A stretch of DNA of 64,000 bases from Xanthomonas hortorum pv. pelargonii. GTDB lineage: Bacteria > Pseudomonadota > Gammaproteobacteria > Xanthomonadales > Xanthomonadaceae. A program made the position numbers and the translations under genes. Positions 1 to 5,176 of this stretch are shown piece after piece. The number at the start of each line of letters is the position of its first letter. Within the stretch, counting starts at the first letter, position 1. The stretch lies in assembly GCF_024499015.1 (NCBI RefSeq), contig NZ_CP098604.1, positions 1-64,000 on the forward strand, read 5' to 3'. The notes under the pieces were generated by a model. It saw only the letters and a list, made by a program, of their open reading frames with translations. It ran no database searches and was not told the DNA's origin.

Positions 1-645
1 GACCATGCCTTGCGGGCATTTATTCTCAGGCTTACACATGCCGTCCTGCTTCACTTGGCCCTCTGGGCAATCAGGTTCAATAGGCTGGCAGACGCCCATG
101 TAGCCGTTCCAGAACGAGCCGGGTGGACACTTCTTCTTATAGTCGGGATCGCACAAGGAACCCGTAGTGCTGCGGGTGCTAGTTTCGTCATCACCGTTCT
201 GCCGGTACTTGACTTCGCAACCATTCCAACACTGGCTAGAGCCATTGAGAGGAAGGAACTGTGTGATTGCTGATGGCGTCGAGGAACACGTCTTGGAAGT
301 GTCGAACATCCAACGTCGGCTATTACGAAAACCGGTCTCAAAATTCTCAGCGTTGTTTCGGCACCGCACCTCAACGCCGTAGCGATTTCCGCCATCCAAA
401 TAAACGCTATAGCTCAACATCACCCAGGAGCCGAATGCAGTGCAATATCGATCAGCGCTAGCATCAGCCGCAGCCAGGGAATACGCCTGACCCTGCGAAC
501 ACAGCGGACTGCTAGTCGGCGTACACGGTGGAATGTCCTGAGCGCGCGCCTGGCCGAGCCCAAACGAGGCGAACATCAATGCGACGATGAGATAGGCCAA
601 GCGCCGAACGACTGCCGATGCAAACACGCGTGCGAGCCAGCGCAT
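1..645 (-). CDS. Minor coat / adsorption protein pIII, 3' part beyond window edge
   Basis: The frame opens with ATG at 645 and stays open for 215 codons to the window edge, so the C-terminus is not seen. The first 35 residues form a signal peptide: arginines, a hydrophobic stretch (residues about 16-30) and a likely cleavage after GQARA. The mature part is rich in cysteine pairs and in Gly, Asn and Ser, as in inovirus adsorption proteins. The ATG overlaps the stop of the preceding 20-aa peptide (TGATG), so the two are translationally coupled. The call rests on position after pVIII and on the secreted Cys-rich character; the gene is otherwise divergent. Confidence 0.72.
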   Translation of the reverse strand, partial: MRWLARVFASAVVRRLAYLIVALMFASFGLGQARAQDIPPCTPTSSPLCSQGQAYSLAAADASADRYCTAFGSWVMLSYSVYLDGGNRYGVEVRCRNNAENFETGFRNSRRWMFDTSKTCSSTPSAITQFLPLNGSSQCWNGCEVKYRQNGDDETSTRSTTGSLCDPDYKKKCPPGSFWNGYMGVCQPIEPDCPEGQVKQDGMCKPENKCPQGMV

Positions 646-707
646 CACATGCCCTCGAATGCGAGCCAAACTGCACCCAAGATTGCCACCAGAATGAAAT
701 AGCCCAT
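645..707 (-). CDS. 20-aa hydrophobic phage peptide (possible minor coat protein)
   Basis: A 20-codon frame, MGYFILVAILGAVWLAFEGM, begins at 707 and is preceded by a GGGGAG ribosome-binding site seven bases upstream. It is almost entirely one transmembrane helix. It sits just after the terminator behind pVIII and is coupled by a one-base stop/start overlap to pIII. Size and position recall the tiny pVII/pIX/pVI-type coat proteins of filamentous phages, but 20 residues is too short to assign by similarity. Confidence 0.5.
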   Translation of the reverse strand: MGYFILVAILGAVWLAFEGM

Positions 708-723
708 AACTCCCCTTTTGCCT

Positions 724-753
724 AAAAAAGGGGCGAACGTTGCCGCGCGCCCC
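724..753 (-). terminator. Rho-independent terminator after pVIII gene
   Basis: Read on the minus strand, a GGGGCG...CGCCCC stem is followed by six T residues. It lies between the major coat gene and the pIII block, where filamentous phages commonly carry a terminator that keeps coat transcripts abundant and limits pIII expression. Confidence 0.75.
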
Positions 754-780
754 TCCCACTTTTTCCCTGGAGCGAAGCGG

Positions 781-1020
781 TTAGCGGGCGCGCTTCACGT
801 AGGCCCAGAGGATGATCGCGCCGAGGATGACGGCGCAGGCACCGATCACCAACATCACATCGCCCTTACCGCTGGCCAACTCGCCAGCAACGGCAGCACC
901 GGGCGAACCCGTACCGGCTGCGAATGCGGCACCCGACGCGAGCAGGGTGGATGCGCCGGCACTGACCTTGGCGCTGGTGGACGAAGCGAAACGACGGGCA
1001 GCATTGACAACGTTCTTCAT
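781..1020 (-). CDS. Major coat protein pVIII precursor
   Basis: The 79-aa product begins MKNVVNAARRF. I chose the ATG at 1020 because a GGAGAG site lies four bases before it; longer in-frame starts at 1032 and 1047 lack one. A signal-like N-terminus (residues 1-33, ending around GAAFAAG) is followed by a short linker, a single membrane helix (VMLVIGACAVILGAIILWAYV, about residues 55-75) and a basic KRAR tail. That is the standard pVIII plan: cleaved leader, membrane helix, and a positive end facing the DNA. Confidence 0.85.
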   Translation of the reverse strand: MKNVVNAARRFASSTSAKVSAGASTLLASGAAFAAGTGSPGAAVAGELASGKGDVMLVIGACAVILGAIILWAYVKRAR

Positions 1021-1033
1021 AAATCTCTCCATT

Positions 1034-1255
1034 TCAGTAGACCCCAAGGCGCGCCGCGCGGAATACGAGACGCGCTTTCAACCCGATAGCCCACGTCGAA
1101 ACGATGGCGAAGGCAATCATGGTTCCATCAGCCAAATCCAGGGGTGGAAGAATTGGCTGGTGGTACGGCACCCACACCGGAACCAAACACGTCCCGTCCT
1201 GCTGCATGTTTTGCGCAGCGCAGCCGATGACGAACAGCGGTTCCGGTGTGGACAT
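1034..1255 (-). CDS. Small phage membrane protein (73 aa)
   Basis: The ATG at 1255 lies three bases after the gV stop codon (1259-1261) and the gene ends 13 bases before the pVIII ATG, so it is part of the phage operon. The 73 residues contain one hydrophobic segment (about 45-62) followed by a basic patch ending ARLGVY, plus two cysteines near the N-terminus. Inoviruses carry small membrane proteins here (pVII/pIX position), but I cannot assign one from the sequence. Confidence 0.65.
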   Translation of the reverse strand: MSTPEPLFVIGCAAQNMQQDGTCLVPVWVPYHQPILPPLDLADGTMIAFAIVSTWAIGLKARLVFRAARLGVY

Positions 1256-1258
1256 GGT

Positions 1259-1554
1259 TTAGCCGACCTTGACGGGCTGCTGTTGCAGCTTGGCAGTCAG
1301 GTCGGGAATCAGACGAATGCGACGGCCGAACTCCAGACCGCCGTATTTATTGTTCTGCAACGACTTGGGATCGATGACGTAGAAGCCATCGCCATACGGA
1401 GGTTGATCCTCATCGAGACCGATGGTAAACGGCAGCGGAAATCGCCTTCGCGCAGCACAGCTGCGGTTTGCTCACGAAAATGCGTGGCAGGCTTGCCATC
1501 GCGCGCAGGGAACGAACGAACCGCGACTGCGGAACTCATGATCTGAACTTTCAT
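1259..1554 (-). pseudogene. Single-stranded DNA-binding protein pV, frameshifted
   Basis: The gene starts at ATG 1554 ([20 protein letters not shown]) and ends at TAA 1261-1259. Its length, 296 bases, is not a multiple of three. Near 1439-1441 the coding signal jumps frame: REGDF is followed, in the neighbouring frame, by [18 protein letters not shown], continuing to LQQQPVKVG. One base is missing after the GAT codon. With it restored, a 98-aa protein of the inovirus ssDNA-binding type results. As sequenced the product is diverted onto another frame after about residue 39. It lies seven bases after rep. Either a true lesion or an assembly indel. Confidence 0.78.
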
Positions 1555-1561
1555 AGTTGGA

Positions 1562-2587
1562 CTACCTTCCAGGCAAATGTCCGGCCGAAAATGAATGTGA
1601 CTTTCCACGGAGACGGCCAGAACTCTCCGGTAAGCCTGTCAAACCATCCGCCCTTTGCTTTGCGGATATCCGCTTCCCCGCCGAGAGCTTCACGCGCGTC
1701 CTTGGGGCTTTCCACCAGCGCAATTCGCGCTTGGATTCGGTGTTGAGTCCACCGCAGCCGTGTGTGCGAAATCCCTTGGGAAAAGCAGCAGCTGTAATGG
1801 CGGTGAACTTGCTTGCGTACTTGGCGAGGTAGCCGACGCAGTTGCGCGCTTTCTCGATTTGGCTACTGCCATGGGGCCACCATCCGCGTTGATCGACCTT
1901 GCCGAAAAACATGCCCTTGGGCACCCACAACATTACGTGGTAGTGGGGGCGGAATCGCTTGGTGAGTTCGCCGACCCATACGTAACGAAAGCTTTCACGG
2001 TCCCAACGTCCTCGCCGAGATTTAGTGCGATTGAAGTGGCCGCGCATCCGTGTAAGTAGTTCCCTAATGTCACAAGGGCTGCTGTCGCGTCCATCAGCGT
2101 AGGTGAGCGTGAGGAAATACCACGCACCACGGAACGAACCTTTCTTGGTTTCCTCGTCATGCAAACGTGCTCCGGTAATCACGGACTTGCGCAGCCGTTG
2201 CGCCCGCGCTTGAAGCGGGTCAATTTCGATAGTGACCGTGCCTTTGCCGGTCTGCGTATGCGTTGTTTTGTAATGGACAAGCCCAAGGGCCAGCGCTGCG
2301 CGCTGGCCCTCTTCGGTCAATGCGATCGGATGGGCAGCGTCGAACTCACGCACGCTTGTACCGACGACGCGCTTGTTCTTTTGGATCTTCTCTGCGGCGA
2401 TTTCAGTGCGGCGCGTAGCGGCCTGCATGACGCCCACAGACGCATCAAACGCGGACAGCTCACGCGATTGCGTCGGCTGTTCCTGCATGCGGATGCGTGC
2501 ATTTTTACCGGTGCACGAAACGCATAGGCCACCGGGGAAAAAGTAGACGGTTGTTTCACCGCAGAAGGAGCAGGTGCCATCAGCCAC
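1562..2587 (-). CDS. Phage rolling-circle replication initiation protein (HUH, pII-like)
   Basis: Of 341 aa if started at GTG 2587, which has GGAG seven bases upstream and overlaps the previous stop codon (GTGGCTGA). Two CxxC pairs (C6/C9 and C22/C25) make an N-terminal zinc ribbon. The HUH metal-binding motif appears as PHYHVMLW around residues 214-221, and candidate nicking tyrosines lie in [10 protein letters not shown] around residues 252-261. The protein should nick the double-stranded phage form at the plus origin to start rolling-circle replication. Longer ATG starts (2656, 2617) exist but lack a site. The coding region also contains an origin-like hairpin repeat (2263-2309). Confidence 0.82.
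2263..2309. repeat. Origin-like repeat, copy A, inside rep
   Basis: A 26-base block (2263-2288, containing TAATGGACAAGCCCAAG) runs into a hairpin with a perfect 10-bp stem, GGGCCAGCGC / GCGCTGGCCC, and a TGC loop (2287-2309). The same 26 bases with one mismatch, followed by a different hairpin, recur at 4703-4755. Some rolling-circle systems (phiX174 for example) keep the plus origin inside the rep gene, so this is a candidate nick or recognition site. Function is inferred. Confidence 0.5.
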
Positions 2588-2756
2588 GATACAACTCCAT
2601 GGCAGCGTCACGCGCATCACAGGCATCGCTGCGCCATGCGAAATAGGACTGCTCAACGACTTTGCCGTTGACAGTGATGGTCAACACGTAGATGTGCTGA
2701 CCGCCATGCACTGGCGCTCTGAAAATCTGCCATGCAACAAAACGAGACTCAGCCAC
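2580..2756 (-). CDS. Small phage protein (58 aa)
   Basis: GTG start at 2756, seven bases after GGAG, overlapping the previous gene's stop codon. The 58 residues are soluble-looking, with a beta-rich middle ([20 protein letters not shown]) and an acidic C-terminus ending MELYRG. It ends in the same GTGGCTGA overlap that starts rep, so its translation is coupled to rep. I do not recognise the family. The coupling suggests a role tied to replication control. Confidence 0.65.
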
Positions 2757-2952
2757 GGCGAAACTCCATGACACGGCAAGCGTTGTCATTGCCGTCAATG
2801 CACTGCTGCTGGATGGTTTCGTCGCGCTGAATCTGGGCTTCGATATTGTCAGCAGTGAACGTGCCGACAAATGCGCCCGCGATAGCGCCGAAGGTGAAAC
2901 CGAAGATCATCGGAAATGGCAAGTCGCGGAGGAAAAGCCAGACGTTACGCAT
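2749..2952 (-). CDS. Small phage membrane protein (67 aa)
   Basis: Starts at ATG 2952, overlapping the end of the preceding gene by eight bases. A glycine-rich membrane helix (about residues 14-34, FPMIFGFTFGAIAGAFVGTF) is followed by a charged C-terminal tail with two cysteines and the ending MEFRRG. The overlap with both neighbours places it in one tightly coupled early transcript. No family recognised. Confidence 0.65.
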   Translation of the reverse strand: MRNVWLFLRDLPFPMIFGFTFGAIAGAFVGTFTADNIEAQIQRDETIQQQCIDGNDNACRVMEFRRG

Positions 2953-3163
2953 GGTCCACCTCGCGCTCGGCAGCGGCACGAACAGAGCGCTTGATCCTTG
3001 CGATGCGAACGTCGTGATTGGCTGAAGCAATCAAATCCTCTTCGCGCAGCTGGCGAAGAATGGCGGCATCGCGGCGATCAAAGATCCAGCCGACCAACCG
3101 AACGACACCCAGGCTGCACACCAAGCAGGCGGCACCAAGAAGCGCGAATGCGATGAGATCCAT
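2945..3163 (-). CDS. First gene of phage early operon: membrane-anchored small protein (72 aa)
   Basis: The ATG at 3163 is five bases after a strong GGAGGGGG site, the best in the operon. Residues 3-25 form one membrane helix (LIAFALLGAACLVCSLGVVRLVG); the rest is a charged, probably helical cytoplasmic tail with many arginines, ending EREVDHA. It is the promoter-proximal gene, divergent from the HTH repressor across a 122-bp control region. Function unknown. Confidence 0.65.
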   Translation of the reverse strand: MDLIAFALLGAACLVCSLGVVRLVGWIFDRRDAAILRQLREEDLIASANHDVRIARIKRSVRAAAEREVDHA

Positions 3164-3285
3164 GAAGCCCCCTCCCTGCCCCTTGACGCGGACCCCGGAG
3201 GGAGCCGGGGGCGCGGTGTCATACGGCGTAGGACACGAGGTGCATGTAACATGACGGAGGACACTTCTGTCAAACGGTATATGAC
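3164..3285. promoter_or_regulatory. Divergent control region between phage early operon and HTH repressor
   Basis: This gap holds two direct copies of TGTCAWACGG (3217-3226 and 3268-3277), 51 bp apart, roughly five helical turns. The second is followed by GGTATATGAC, giving an imperfect inverted copy. These are candidate operators for the adjacent repressor. No firm -35/-10 pair is obvious on either strand. Confidence 0.45.
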
Positions 3286-3762
3286 GTGAACACCATAAAT
3301 AAATTGCTTGACACTGCGCGCAAAGCATGCTCGCGCGACTCAGATAACAGCGTTGCGCTGGCACTGGGTGTGTCGCGGAATTCGGTGTCGGTTTGGCGCA
3401 AGGGTGGAAAAATCACAGACGCGCACTTGATGGCACTGATTGACCTGGCGCAGGCCGATCCTGCCCTAGCGGTGAAAGTGCGCGAAGAGGAAGCAGGCTC
3501 AGTCGTTGAGCGGAAGGCTTGGGGTGCGCTATGGGACAGACTGTCCCCGGTCACTACGGTGATCGGGGCGATGGTCCTGGCCATCGGCATGATGCCGGCG
3601 ACGGCTCAGAAAAAGACCATTGAAATCAATAACTTGAACGCGTCGAGCGCGGATAATCTGTATATTATGTCCGGCCCGGTTCTGTGTCTTCATATGCGTG
3701 CCGCCTCCAACGCGGCCCTGAGTGCTGCCGGTGGTTGCTGCCACCGGCAAGAATTGCCCTGA
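3286..3762 (+). CDS. Phage HTH repressor-like protein, 3' end crosses att
   Basis: GTG start at 3286 (the ATG at 3281 is followed by a stop codon). Residues about 18-40 (SVALALGVSRNSVSVWRKGG) form a helix-turn-helix. A hydrophobic segment lies at about 89-104. The arrangement resembles inovirus repressor-like proteins. Codons from residue 124 on lie in the dif-like repeat, and the last 30 or so (GPVLCLHMRAASN...) read satellite DNA. The true C-terminus in the phage circle is therefore different and not visible here. It is divergent from the phage early operon, consistent with repression of it. Confidence 0.7.
   Translation: MNTINKLLDTARKACSRDSDNSVALALGVSRNSVSVWRKGGKITDAHLMALIDLAQADPALAVKVREEEAGSVVERKAWGALWDRLSPVTTVIGAMVLAIGMMPATAQKKTIEINNLNASSADNLYIMSGPVLCLHMRAASNAALSAAGGCCHRQELP
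3657..3671. repeat. dif-like att site, left copy
   Basis: TCTGTATATTATGTC, identical to 5162-5176. It contains the central TGTATA and the start of a TTATGT XerD-type arm as in bacterial dif. The bases to its left (CGCGGATAATC) resemble a XerC arm. I take it as the junction between the phage and the 1.5-kb segment to its right. Confidence 0.72.
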
Positions 3763-3889
3763 TAGGCATGAAAAAACGGGTCAGCAGTCGGGTTAGCGCC
3801 CGGCCCTGGCCCGCACTCTTGCGCGGCTCCAGCCGCTAAGTGCAGAGCGGCGCATCCATGCGCCATACCCGCAGGGGCGCAGCCCCTGC
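3726..3889. promoter_or_regulatory. Hairpin cluster (candidate packaging signal / minus-strand origin)
   Basis: Four stem-loops occur in 164 bases: TGCCGGTGG / CCACCGGCA (3726-3749), GCGGCT / AGCCGC (3823-3836), GGCGCAT / ATGCGCC (3849-3864) and GCAGGGGC / GCCCCTGC (3871-3889). Filamentous phage intergenic regions carry such hairpins for minus-strand initiation and packaging. Here they would let helper phage proteins replicate and package the satellite circle. Roles are inferred from structure only. A weak open frame (4091-3690, minus) crosses them and is probably not coding. Confidence 0.45.
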
Positions 3890-3945
3890 ACCCCACAAGC
3901 AGCAACACAGCGACTATCGCCGTGCTGACCGCTAAGCGGAAATGG

Positions 3946-4239
3946 TCAACCAACACGAGGGCCGCCATCGGCCCGCGCACGCACCCTCGCTCGGTCGCTC
4001 CGTTGCATGCTCCGTCCGGAGGCGGCCAGGTCATATCGTTCACGATATGCAGCGGATAACCTGCGTTGCGCCTGTGCCAACCAGGTCTCACAGTCCTCTA
4101 CAACAGAGGCCATGGCGATACGCTCAGCGATCGACACGGCACCCTCAGCATTGCGCTCAGCGCGAACGGCATAGGCCGCTGCAACAACCTCCTGCAGTCG
4201 AGTGACCGCCTGACGCAGGTAATCGATATCGGCGCTCAC
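3946..4239 (-). CDS. Small helical protein of satellite (97 aa)
   Basis: GTG start at 4239, overlapping the ATGTGA end of the frame upstream. Residues 5-75 look like two amphipathic helices or a short coiled coil (DIDYLRQAVTRLQEVVAAAY; EDCETWLAQAQRRLSAAYRE). The C-terminal 25 residues are arginine-rich and could bind nucleic acid. It lies 35 bases downstream of the RHH-SEC-C gene and is likely co-transcribed. No family recognised. Confidence 0.5.
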   Translation of the reverse strand: MSADIDYLRQAVTRLQEVVAAAYAVRAERNAEGAVSIAERIAMASVVEDCETWLAQAQRRLSAAYRERYDLAASGRSMQRSDRARVRARADGGPRVG

Positions 4240-5176
4240 ATGCCACCGCCGGCATTTCGTGACGCGTCACGATTTAGGTCCACTCCGGATGGCAGTGCTT
4301 GGCCTTGCGACCACTGCCACATGGGCAATCCTCGTTCCGCCCAACCTTGGCCTGAGGACGCTTCACCGGAGTGACGACAGGAGCGTCCCAGTCGGAAACC
4401 GCCGCCGATGCTGGGCGCGGCTTGGGCTTGGGCTTGGGCGGTGTCACAGGGCCGGAAAGTTCCTTCCGGGTCCGCTTCACCTGTTCCGAGACAGCGAACA
4501 AGATGTAGGCGTTGAGGGACACCCCCAACAGCGCGGCCTGCGCCTTGGCTTCCTCCACTACGTGCATCGGGAGCCTCAAATTTATCTTGTGAATGGCGTC
4601 TGTCATGGGGCCATTGTGGCCCCATTATGGCCCCATGGCAAGCAAGAGGATAAGCGACGCGAAACCCTTGATACAGCTGGGTTTCGCTGGGGCGCGTGTC
4701 ACTTGTTTTATAATGGACAAGCCCAAGGCGCGCCCCGGCTTCGCCGGAACGCGCCTGGATGGCGGCAAGTTGATCGCGGAGAGCATCACGCTCACGCATG
4801 AGCGGCCCCATGCATTCGGCGCGACGGAATAGCAGCGAAAGCCAGTCGAGATCAGTGGCGCGAATCTCACGCCCCTCAGCAGTCACCAAAGCGCCGCGAT
4901 GGTTGATGAAGCAGCTGGACCACTCCGGGTGGATCAGAGAGCCATGGCGGTACACGCGTAGGAGCTTGAAAGCGGCGTAACTCGGCCGAGCCCTACCCGT
5001 CTCCCAGTGGCCGATGGTTCGAACGCTGACATTGAGGAAGCGCGCGGCGTCTTCCCGAGTGAACCCACTGAAGATTCTGGCGTCGCGAAACTGTGTGTTG
5101 CTGATTATAGAACGATGCGCAGATTTGTATAACCACCCTTTGCGGGAAGCCTTTGCTGCGCTCTGTATATTATGTC
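4236..5176 (-). CDS. HTH regulator (phage DUF3653-like), 5' end split off by integration
   Basis: The open frame runs from the att repeat to 4236. It contains an HTH ([20 protein letters not shown]) followed by [18 protein letters not shown] and LIHPEWSSC, the layout of small phage regulators. In the integrated state there is a TGA just upstream of the repeat and no start codon before the HTH; the first in-frame GTG is at 4955, after it. In a circle the frame joins ATG 3693 (MKTQNRAGHNIQ) with a GGAGG site upstream. TATAAT (5109-5104) with TTATAC 17 bases upstream is a possible promoter. The last 120 codons overlap the RHH-SEC-C gene in another frame and look non-coding, so the true end may be nearer 4620. 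Confidence 0.6.
4274..4606 (-). CDS. Ribbon-helix-helix protein fused to SEC-C zinc motif
   Basis: The 110-aa product has an Arc/MetJ-like N-terminus ([20 protein letters not shown], about residues 7-26, then GVSLNAYI) typical of ribbon-helix-helix DNA binders. A Pro/Lys linker (residues 56-65) follows, then a SEC-C motif at 89-107 with C94, C96, C105 and H106 as zinc ligands ([16 protein letters not shown]). RHH repressors usually regulate themselves, and three TGGGGCCA-type boxes lie directly over the start codon. The SEC-C motif mediates zinc and protein or ribosome contacts in SecA. The fusion is uncommon as far as I know. No toxin partner is obvious next to it. Confidence 0.75.
4606..4635. 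promoter_or_regulatory. Three-box operator at the RHH-SEC-C start
   Basis: TGGGGCCA at 4606-4613 and its reverse complement TGGCCCCA at 4617-4624 and 4628-4635 are spaced exactly 11 bp apart, one helical turn. This is the pattern bound by dimers of ribbon-helix-helix repressors. The first box overlaps the ATG, so binding would block transcription and possibly translation of the gene: autoregulation. Confidence 0.6.
4703..4755. repeat. Origin-like repeat, copy B, in satellite
   Basis: Bases 4703-4728 match 2263-2288 in the phage rep gene with one difference (TTTTATAATGG versus TTTTGTAATGG). As in copy A, a strong hairpin follows at once, but with different bases: GGCGCG...CCGGC TTC GCCGG...CGCGCC (4727-4755). 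Conservation of the block and of hairpin structure without hairpin sequence argues for a functional site, such as a nick site for the helper's HUH protein, rather than for a shared protein motif alone. Confidence 0.5.
5162..5176. repeat. dif-like att site, right copy (chromosomal junction)
   Basis: TCTGTATATTATGTC, identical to 3657-3671. Its right edge is 21 bp from the stop codon of the chromosomal membrane-protein gene, so I place the phage/satellite-chromosome boundary here. Confidence 0.7.

Follow-up and report, generated by a model that had tools for sequence, protein, structure and literature searches.

A 1.5-kb satellite-like element integrated at dif beside an inovirus prophage in Xanthomonas hortorum pv. 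pelargonii

The window analysed here, a stretch of 64,000 nucleotides, is the first 64 kb of the 5,214,437-bp contig C1 (NZ_CP098604.1) of Xanthomonas hortorum pv. pelargonii. Close to its start a segment of 1,505 bp (3672-5176, hereafter element C) lies between direct repeats of TCTGTATATTATGTC, next to an inovirus prophage that we term prophage B. That element C is a discrete, satellite-like element that integrates at the chromosomal dif site is well supported, because independent intact copies share its ends and size, tandem arrays and empty sites occur, purifying selection is seen and two inovirus cis signals are present, and no phage genes were found inside it. We further consider it probable (at roughly 0.78) that what has integrated here is a minimal filamentous-phage satellite, a natural phagemid that would form a circle and be replicated and packaged by an inovirus.

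Only two copies of TCTGTATATTATGTC, at 3657-3671 and 5162-5176, are present in the 5.3-Mb genome when up to one mismatch is allowed, and a reversed-pattern control searched in the same way gave 0 matches; a chance origin of the 15-bp pair was therefore rejected. The repeat is best described as the centre of dif plus its XerD arm (TGTATATTATGTC), which element C keeps, and the XerC side is divergent. A search for perfect dif (TTCGCATAATGTATATTATGT) with up to three mismatches gave a single genomic match, at C1:5210950, which leaves 3.5 kb to the contig end. C1 appears to be circular, as its ends meet within the same phage gene when compared by eye with a second prophage, A; read as a circle, the order is dif, 7,137 bp of inovirus B, a half-dif, the 1,505 bp of element C, a second half-dif and then the chromosome. 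The distance of 7,137 bp from dif to the first half-dif marks neighbour B as a full-length inovirus. To the left of dif is the oppositely oriented inovirus A, and a half-site (TTCGCATAATGTATA) lies at a distance of 7,991 bp. Thus dif is flanked by elements on both sides, those on the right keeping the centre and XerD arm and those on the left the XerC arm and centre.

Canonical dif was present in 35/35 genomes of the genus. In one of these, G021, whose rne region has 98% identity to that of the window genome, nothing intervenes between dif and the flank found here beyond 5176 (384/400 bases identical), and the same arrangement was judged by eye to hold in G022 and G031; B and C must therefore be insertions here or losses there. 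Element C accordingly has direct repeats at chromosomal dif and an empty site in relatives. A Xer-flanked gene module of the Acinetobacter pdif kind, or a domesticated cassette that regulates dif, would also place genes between Xer half-sites, and the XafT protein encoded in element C belongs to a family that acts on Xer recombination. However, pdif modules are genes between inversely oriented Xer sites on Acinetobacter plasmids, whereas the sites of element C are in direct orientation, at chromosomal dif, occupied in some relatives and not in others, and inovirus cis signals lie inside it; we regard this explanation as very improbable.

Intact relatives with the same ends were found in four IMG/VR loci (L132, 1,494 bp; L133, 1,509 bp; L134, 1,629 bp; L135, 1,530 bp), and a fifth, L136, carries the element in incomplete form. 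In L133 a second copy begins after the element, and L135 holds a tandem array of two identical copies and a third that the contig end truncates (1,509/1,510 bases identical). Xanthomonas populi CFBP1817 (G029) has a copy beside dif with its far end missing. Scans with alignment A1 gave 44 loci in IMG/VR, five strong and 39 weakly similar (tblastn 8e-6 or weaker), and two in genome contigs. Selection was tested on two of the three open reading frames (ORFs), xafT and the regulator, the latter in copies other than that of L134. Both are under purifying selection, with ratios of non-synonymous to synonymous substitution (dN/dS) of 0.02-0.10 for xafT in 10 pairs and of 0.10-0.17 for the regulator with ribbon-helix-helix (RHH) and SEC-C parts in six pairs, many dS values being near saturation; the window regulator gave 0.10-0.14 against three relatives.

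These findings bear on whether element C is a decayed remnant of a larger inovirus or integrative mobile element exploiting Xer (IMEX), immobile after deletion. Decay does occur, as in G008, G027 and G028 blastn found no more of the element beside dif than its first 163, 222 and 36 bp, with other sequence following, and the resident phages also seem damaged. However, remnants that arose independently would hardly be expected to include five intact copies (1,494-1,629 bp) that share their ends, or to show tandem arrays, dN/dS values under 0.2 and origins that can be exchanged. In addition, xafT had no match in 50,697 phage records, and we think this alternative unlikely.

Pfam and PHROGs searches of the tested ORFs of element C identified a helix-turn-helix (HTH) protein, a protein with HicB/Arc-like and SEC-C parts, and one ORF without a credible family; no rep, coat or Zot/assembly gene was found between the repeats by these searches. 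The HTH protein, the product of xafT, passes the curated NCBI cut-off for the VC1465 family (NF040522, 76.7 bits against 70), and five of its homologues at NCBI are named Xer recombination activation factor. At E<=1e-3 xafT matched 0/50,697 phage records, which rejects the possibility that it is an ordinary phage gene, and the plasmid records that it matched (6/72,556) were all weak Acinetobacter HTH matches. The RHH/SEC-C protein matched six of the 50,697 phage records, in each case only over its C-terminal SEC-C part. At the position of the window's 97-residue ORF, loci L132-L135 have a different ORF of 88-90 residues. The excerpts consulted of PMC9765430 describe XafT of a Vibrio IMEX as XerD-activating, and these and the excerpts of PMC7307601 cite the XafT study of Midonet et al. 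(2019).

The reading frame of xafT runs to the right junction at 5176, where it meets an in-frame TGA, and in the integrated copy no ATG, GTG or TTG start was present in frame upstream of the HTH. The frame meets TGA exactly at this junction in the window copy, L132 and L134; where copies adjoin in tandem, in L133 and L135, it runs on instead to the ATG of the next copy, and the start arrangement predicted for the window is contiguous there. Integration thus parts xafT from its start codon, which in the window sits across the predicted circle junction (Table 1), and we infer that this separation acts as a switch.

The first of the two inovirus signals is an origin-like site. When element C with about 30 bp on each side was compared with the 50,697 phage records, nine matched, all over the same 36 bp. 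A gene is annotated at the site in 8/9 of these, named replication initiation protein in five, hypothetical in XacF1 (two records) and an integration ORF in Cf1t; the remaining record is unannotated. ORF1 of XacF1, which holds the site, is compared with pII in the excerpts consulted of PMC4076744. Within the window, 4702-4728 is 96% identical over 26 bp to 2263-2288 in rep of prophage B, so that the site is nearer to other Xanthomonas phages (36 bp, 97.2%) than to the resident one. A 23-bp pattern of the origin, searched with one mismatch in 395 genomes of the family, was found at 14 sites in 12 genomes (control, 0). Nine of these fall in reading frames that are homologues of prophage B Rep, and the other five lie next to XafT, no more than about 220 bp away; a hairpin follows the site in most of the 14, the satellite hairpins differing in sequence. 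The window element reads LGLVHYKT in frame at the site, as in Rep. However, L133 and L135 read the same bases in another frame, so that the conserved thing is the DNA, and a protein-level cause for the match was rejected.

Origin forms also agree between satellites and phages of genus g28, where TTGTTGAAGAATAGAC occurs in the G244 satellite and the phages of G205 and G378 have TTGTTGAAGAATGGAC and TTGTTGAAGAAGGGAC. The form in the window satellite is TTGTTTTATAATGGAC and that in Xanthomonas phages TTGTTTTGTAATGGAC. L134 has the same backbone without the 36-bp site and carries instead a 37-bp stretch that matches, at 97.3%, seven records of PSH1, SMA7, phiSHP2 and fSU1, with a replication gene at the site in 5/7; an eighth record matches L134 elsewhere, at 84%. 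The X. populi copy carries the same PSH1-type stretch, and among the listed elements this type was found only in L134 and X. populi. The inovirus region of G034 has the PSH1 form without mismatch. The likeliest explanation is an exchange in which a satellite replaces one helper type's origin by that of another.

The second signal is a hairpin near the left end (Table 1), of pattern TA-CCG(T/C)AGGGGC-NNN-GCCCCT(A/G)CACCCC. In all five fetched phages it lies in an intergenic gap, downstream of zot (phiLf, PSH1, fSU1 and Cf1c) or of the zot-equivalent ORF (XacF1), and in the three of them that have the 36-bp origin-like site it is on the same strand as that site. Within the genus the hairpin is 437-521 bp from dif (11/14 Zot-bearing genomes; three without Zot, G005, G010 and G027), and in elements of the window type it is about 215 bp from the end. 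The pattern was found in 62/395 genomes (the control matched two) and co-occurs with Zot, being present in 32/73 genomes with Zot against 30/322 others (odds ratio 7.6, p=5e-11). From its position we take this hairpin to be a candidate packaging signal. The same hairpin was also seen on second contigs (G000:C2:73503-73523 and G027:C2:37900-37920), possibly in plasmid-borne pieces of inoviruses or satellites.

Table 1. Features of element C and its surroundings; positions are those of the 64,000-nucleotide window.
Feature	Position	Strand	Basis or remark
Inovirus prophage B, right half	1..3656		left half at C1 end from about 5210961
rep (pII) of prophage B	1562..2656	-	phrog_2969 2e-181, PF23343; internal origin-like site 2263-2288
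DUF3693-type regulator of prophage B	3286..3762	+	frame crosses left junction
Left half-dif junction	3657..3671	+	phage B XerC-side arm, centre TGTATA, element C XerD arm
Element C, one integrated copy, satellite-like	3672..5176		1,505 bp
Predicted xafT start, circular or tandem form	3691..3708	-	ATG 3693-3691, GGAGG 3708-3704, by eye
Palindrome GGCGCATCCATGCGCC adjoining hairpin	3849..3864	+	sequence
Hairpin TACCCGCAGGGGCGCAGCCCCTGCACCCC, candidate packaging signal common to inoviruses	3866..3894	+	pattern search
97-residue ORF without credible family	3946..4239	-	common to element C and X. populi
110-residue regulator, HicB/Arc-like RHH and SEC-C zinc motif	4274..4606	-	Pfam/domain search
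GGCCCCATT-type repeats at regulator start, candidate operator	4607..4638		sequence, inference
Origin-like site, 36 bp	4693..4728	+	97.2% identical to site within rep of phiLf, Cf1c, phiXv2; also XacF1, Cf1t
xafT core, HTH and VC1465-family Xer recombination activation factor	4716..5120	-	NF040522
Hairpin immediately after origin-like site	4727..4755	+	sequence unlike hairpin of rep
Right half-dif junction	5162..5176	+	degenerate element C XerC-side arm, then centre and XerD arm of chromosomal dif

What a preliminary description of this DNA had pointed out is borne out by these results: the two identical dif-like repeats 1,505 bp apart, the lack of Rep, coat or assembly genes between them, an origin-like repeat shared with the phage rep gene, and a hairpin cluster (3849-3894). 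The contrary outcome that it named, full-length phages in which these genes are ordinary parts, was not encountered for xafT among the phage records.

A cycle can be proposed from these features. In the circular form xafT would be expressed from the start codon beyond the junction, and its product would activate XerD without FtsK, so that the host XerCD could insert the satellite circle at dif. Insertion would remove the start of xafT and place an in-frame stop, stabilising the integrated state. If an active inovirus with a matching Rep were present, Rep could nick the origin-like site and the satellite would replicate by rolling circle; the hairpin might then let phage proteins pack it into short filamentous particles.

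Several observations weigh against this picture. Genomes with a strong XafT match are not enriched for Zot (4/19 against 69/376; Fisher p=0.76), and as Zot occurs in them at about the background rate the element can persist without a helper in residence. The Rep of the neighbouring phage is of PSH1 type in L132 and L133, but the satellite origin there is of phiLf type; with such a mismatch the neighbour need not be the helper. L132 and L136, which have the Xanthomonas backbone, carry the GAAGAAT origin form seen in g28, and the origin form is thus not strictly host-tracking. Neither origin type was recognised in the elements of G149, G286, G098, G158 and G034. As for the hairpin, it is present in 30/322 genomes without Zot, its pattern matched 9/17 element intervals, two of those poorly, and it could serve minus-strand initiation rather than packaging. 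Finally, recent horizontal transfer to or from X. populi is not proven, as the identity of its copy to element C (97% over 683 bp) is little above that of rne (95%).

The proposal that the element is a minimal satellite of the co-resident phage is thus supported in part, for a discrete satellite-like element at dif, and the co-resident phage is only a possible helper. The Zot counts would suit a mini-IMEX that is autonomous, spreading through Xer recombination driven by XafT together with transformation or vesicles, with no phage packaging, and for integration XafT and half-dif sites could suffice. Such an element would leave unexplained why 14/14 pattern sites lie in inovirus rep or beside XafT, and likewise the swap to a PSH1-type site and the shared, strand-concordant hairpin. 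We therefore hold a mini-IMEX to be improbable and prefer the phage satellite. An inovirus Zot is found nearby in IMG/VR loci L132-L135 and was not found in the L136 stretch, although IMG/VR is itself selected for viruses.

To see how far such segments extend in the family, XafT matches were collected from the 395 genomes (66 matches in 58 genomes), of which 21, in 19 genomes, were strong (E<=4.2e-10). Fifteen of the 21 lie in segments bounded by dif or half-dif sites. Twelve of these are bounded on both sides and measure 1.17-1.77 kb (G000, G149, which is Lysobacter aestuarii, G244, G232, G366, G286, G034, G270, G225, G098, G158 and G370), and a search of both strands added three more, in G303 (0.96 kb), in G033 (2.02 kb) and around one of the two G107 matches (1.92 kb). 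For five matches a site was present on just one side (two in G029, one each in G040 and G089, and the second of G107), and for the match in G374 no bounding dif or half-dif site was found. Within the twelve, the window element and that of G232 are right-hand and the other ten left-hand, as in the Vibrio cholerae satellite TLCphi; the SEC-C motif is present in 6/12. Against the phage records the G034 element gave one weak match, to an SMA7 gene named hypothetical, and the left element of X. populi gave none. It is about an even chance that the family as a whole harbours natural phagemids of about 1-2 kb at dif, which would exchange helper origins at a fixed spot between xafT and the RHH regulator and carry a self-splitting xafT, such that integration would switch off its own reaction and a tandem copy restore the gene.

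Further details of these segments were noted by eye or in passing. In the left-hand elements of L189, L190, L192 and L194 xafT starts right after the half-dif, and its ATG apparently lies inside the dif core (CATAATG), as seen by eye in L190 only. Next to the G098 element lies a 1,288-bp segment (L196 4743-6031), dif-bounded as well, that gave no XafT match, and mini-elements without the activator may exist. Among 32 XafT homologues, 16 are on very short contigs (0.65-2.31 kb); these may represent free circles or just fragments of assemblies. The attR primer P4 given in the excerpts consulted of PMC4076744 for the XacF1 study matches 27/28 bases within an XafT-like gene left of dif in X. populi (L034 1569-1596), and the flank used there as chromosome for X. 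citri may itself be a satellite.

TLCphi is about 5 kb and has its own replication initiator gene. Like element C, it encodes a VC1465/XafT-family activator and occurs next to inovirus prophages; according to the excerpts consulted of PMC5357621 it inserts at dif through host XerCD, and its attP keeps the XerC side with a divergent XerD side. By contrast, element C keeps the XerD arm and diverges on the XerC side, measures 1.5 kb and has no Rep match. We do not file it as a member of TLCphi because of this attP polarity and the missing initiator, though we judge that it probably works in the same way; elements of the XerC-side type do occur, both in Xanthomonas (G034) and in relatives from other genera. 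Element C also has, as far as sequence can tell, the Xer half-sites and XafT homologue of XafT-encoding IMEX.

The RS1 satellite of CTXphi uses helper packaging, is often found in tandem near dif and carries its own rstR, rstA, rstB and rstC. Element C resembles it in the satellite idea and differs in that only repressor-like proteins were found. Laboratory phagemids depend on a helper and are small circles bearing a phage origin and a packaging signal; element C differs from them in being natural, integrative and equipped with its own recombination activator. With phiLf, Cf1c and XacF1 it shares the origin-like site and hairpin, but these phages, at 6-7.3 kb, possess genes for Rep, coat and assembly and have no xafT match, and element C lacks the rep, coat and Zot genes of an autonomous inovirus. 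Few filamentous-phage satellites are known to us, mostly from Vibrio cholerae. XafT-encoding Xer elements were reportedly found by Midonet et al. to be widespread, plant pathogens included, so that the presence of xafT in hosts of this kind is unlikely to be new. The literature searches, together with the excerpts consulted of PMC9765430, PMC7307601, PMC5357621, PMC4076744 and PMC2605562, gave no account of an element like this one in Xanthomonas, nor of so minimal an architecture, of captured origins or of a hairpin shared with inoviruses; the excerpts of PMC4076744 do state that Xanthomonas inoviruses integrate by XerCD-dif.

If our reading is correct, element C shows how little suffices to parasitise an inovirus, namely borrowed signals and no recognised phage gene. 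It would offer a tractable helper-satellite system for Xanthomonas and relatives and a candidate packaging signal for these phages, and helper switching by origin capture would be directly testable. Sequence beside dif in this family, which is easily taken for chromosome, can be satellite DNA.

The neighbouring inoviruses were also inspected. Prophages A (C1:5203657-5210950, L011) and B flank dif in opposite orientations, one keeping one half of dif and one the other, with one perfect dif between them, and the Zot matches of the genome fall in these two prophages. The DUF3693-type regulator frame of B crosses the left junction (Table 1), and phiLf is annotated with a Xer site within its DUF3693 gene. 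By eye, the gene V-like frame of B (1309-1608) seems shifted relative to that of A, and the Zot frames of both are 280 codons long, many relatives having about 400-450; the two resident prophages may be defective.

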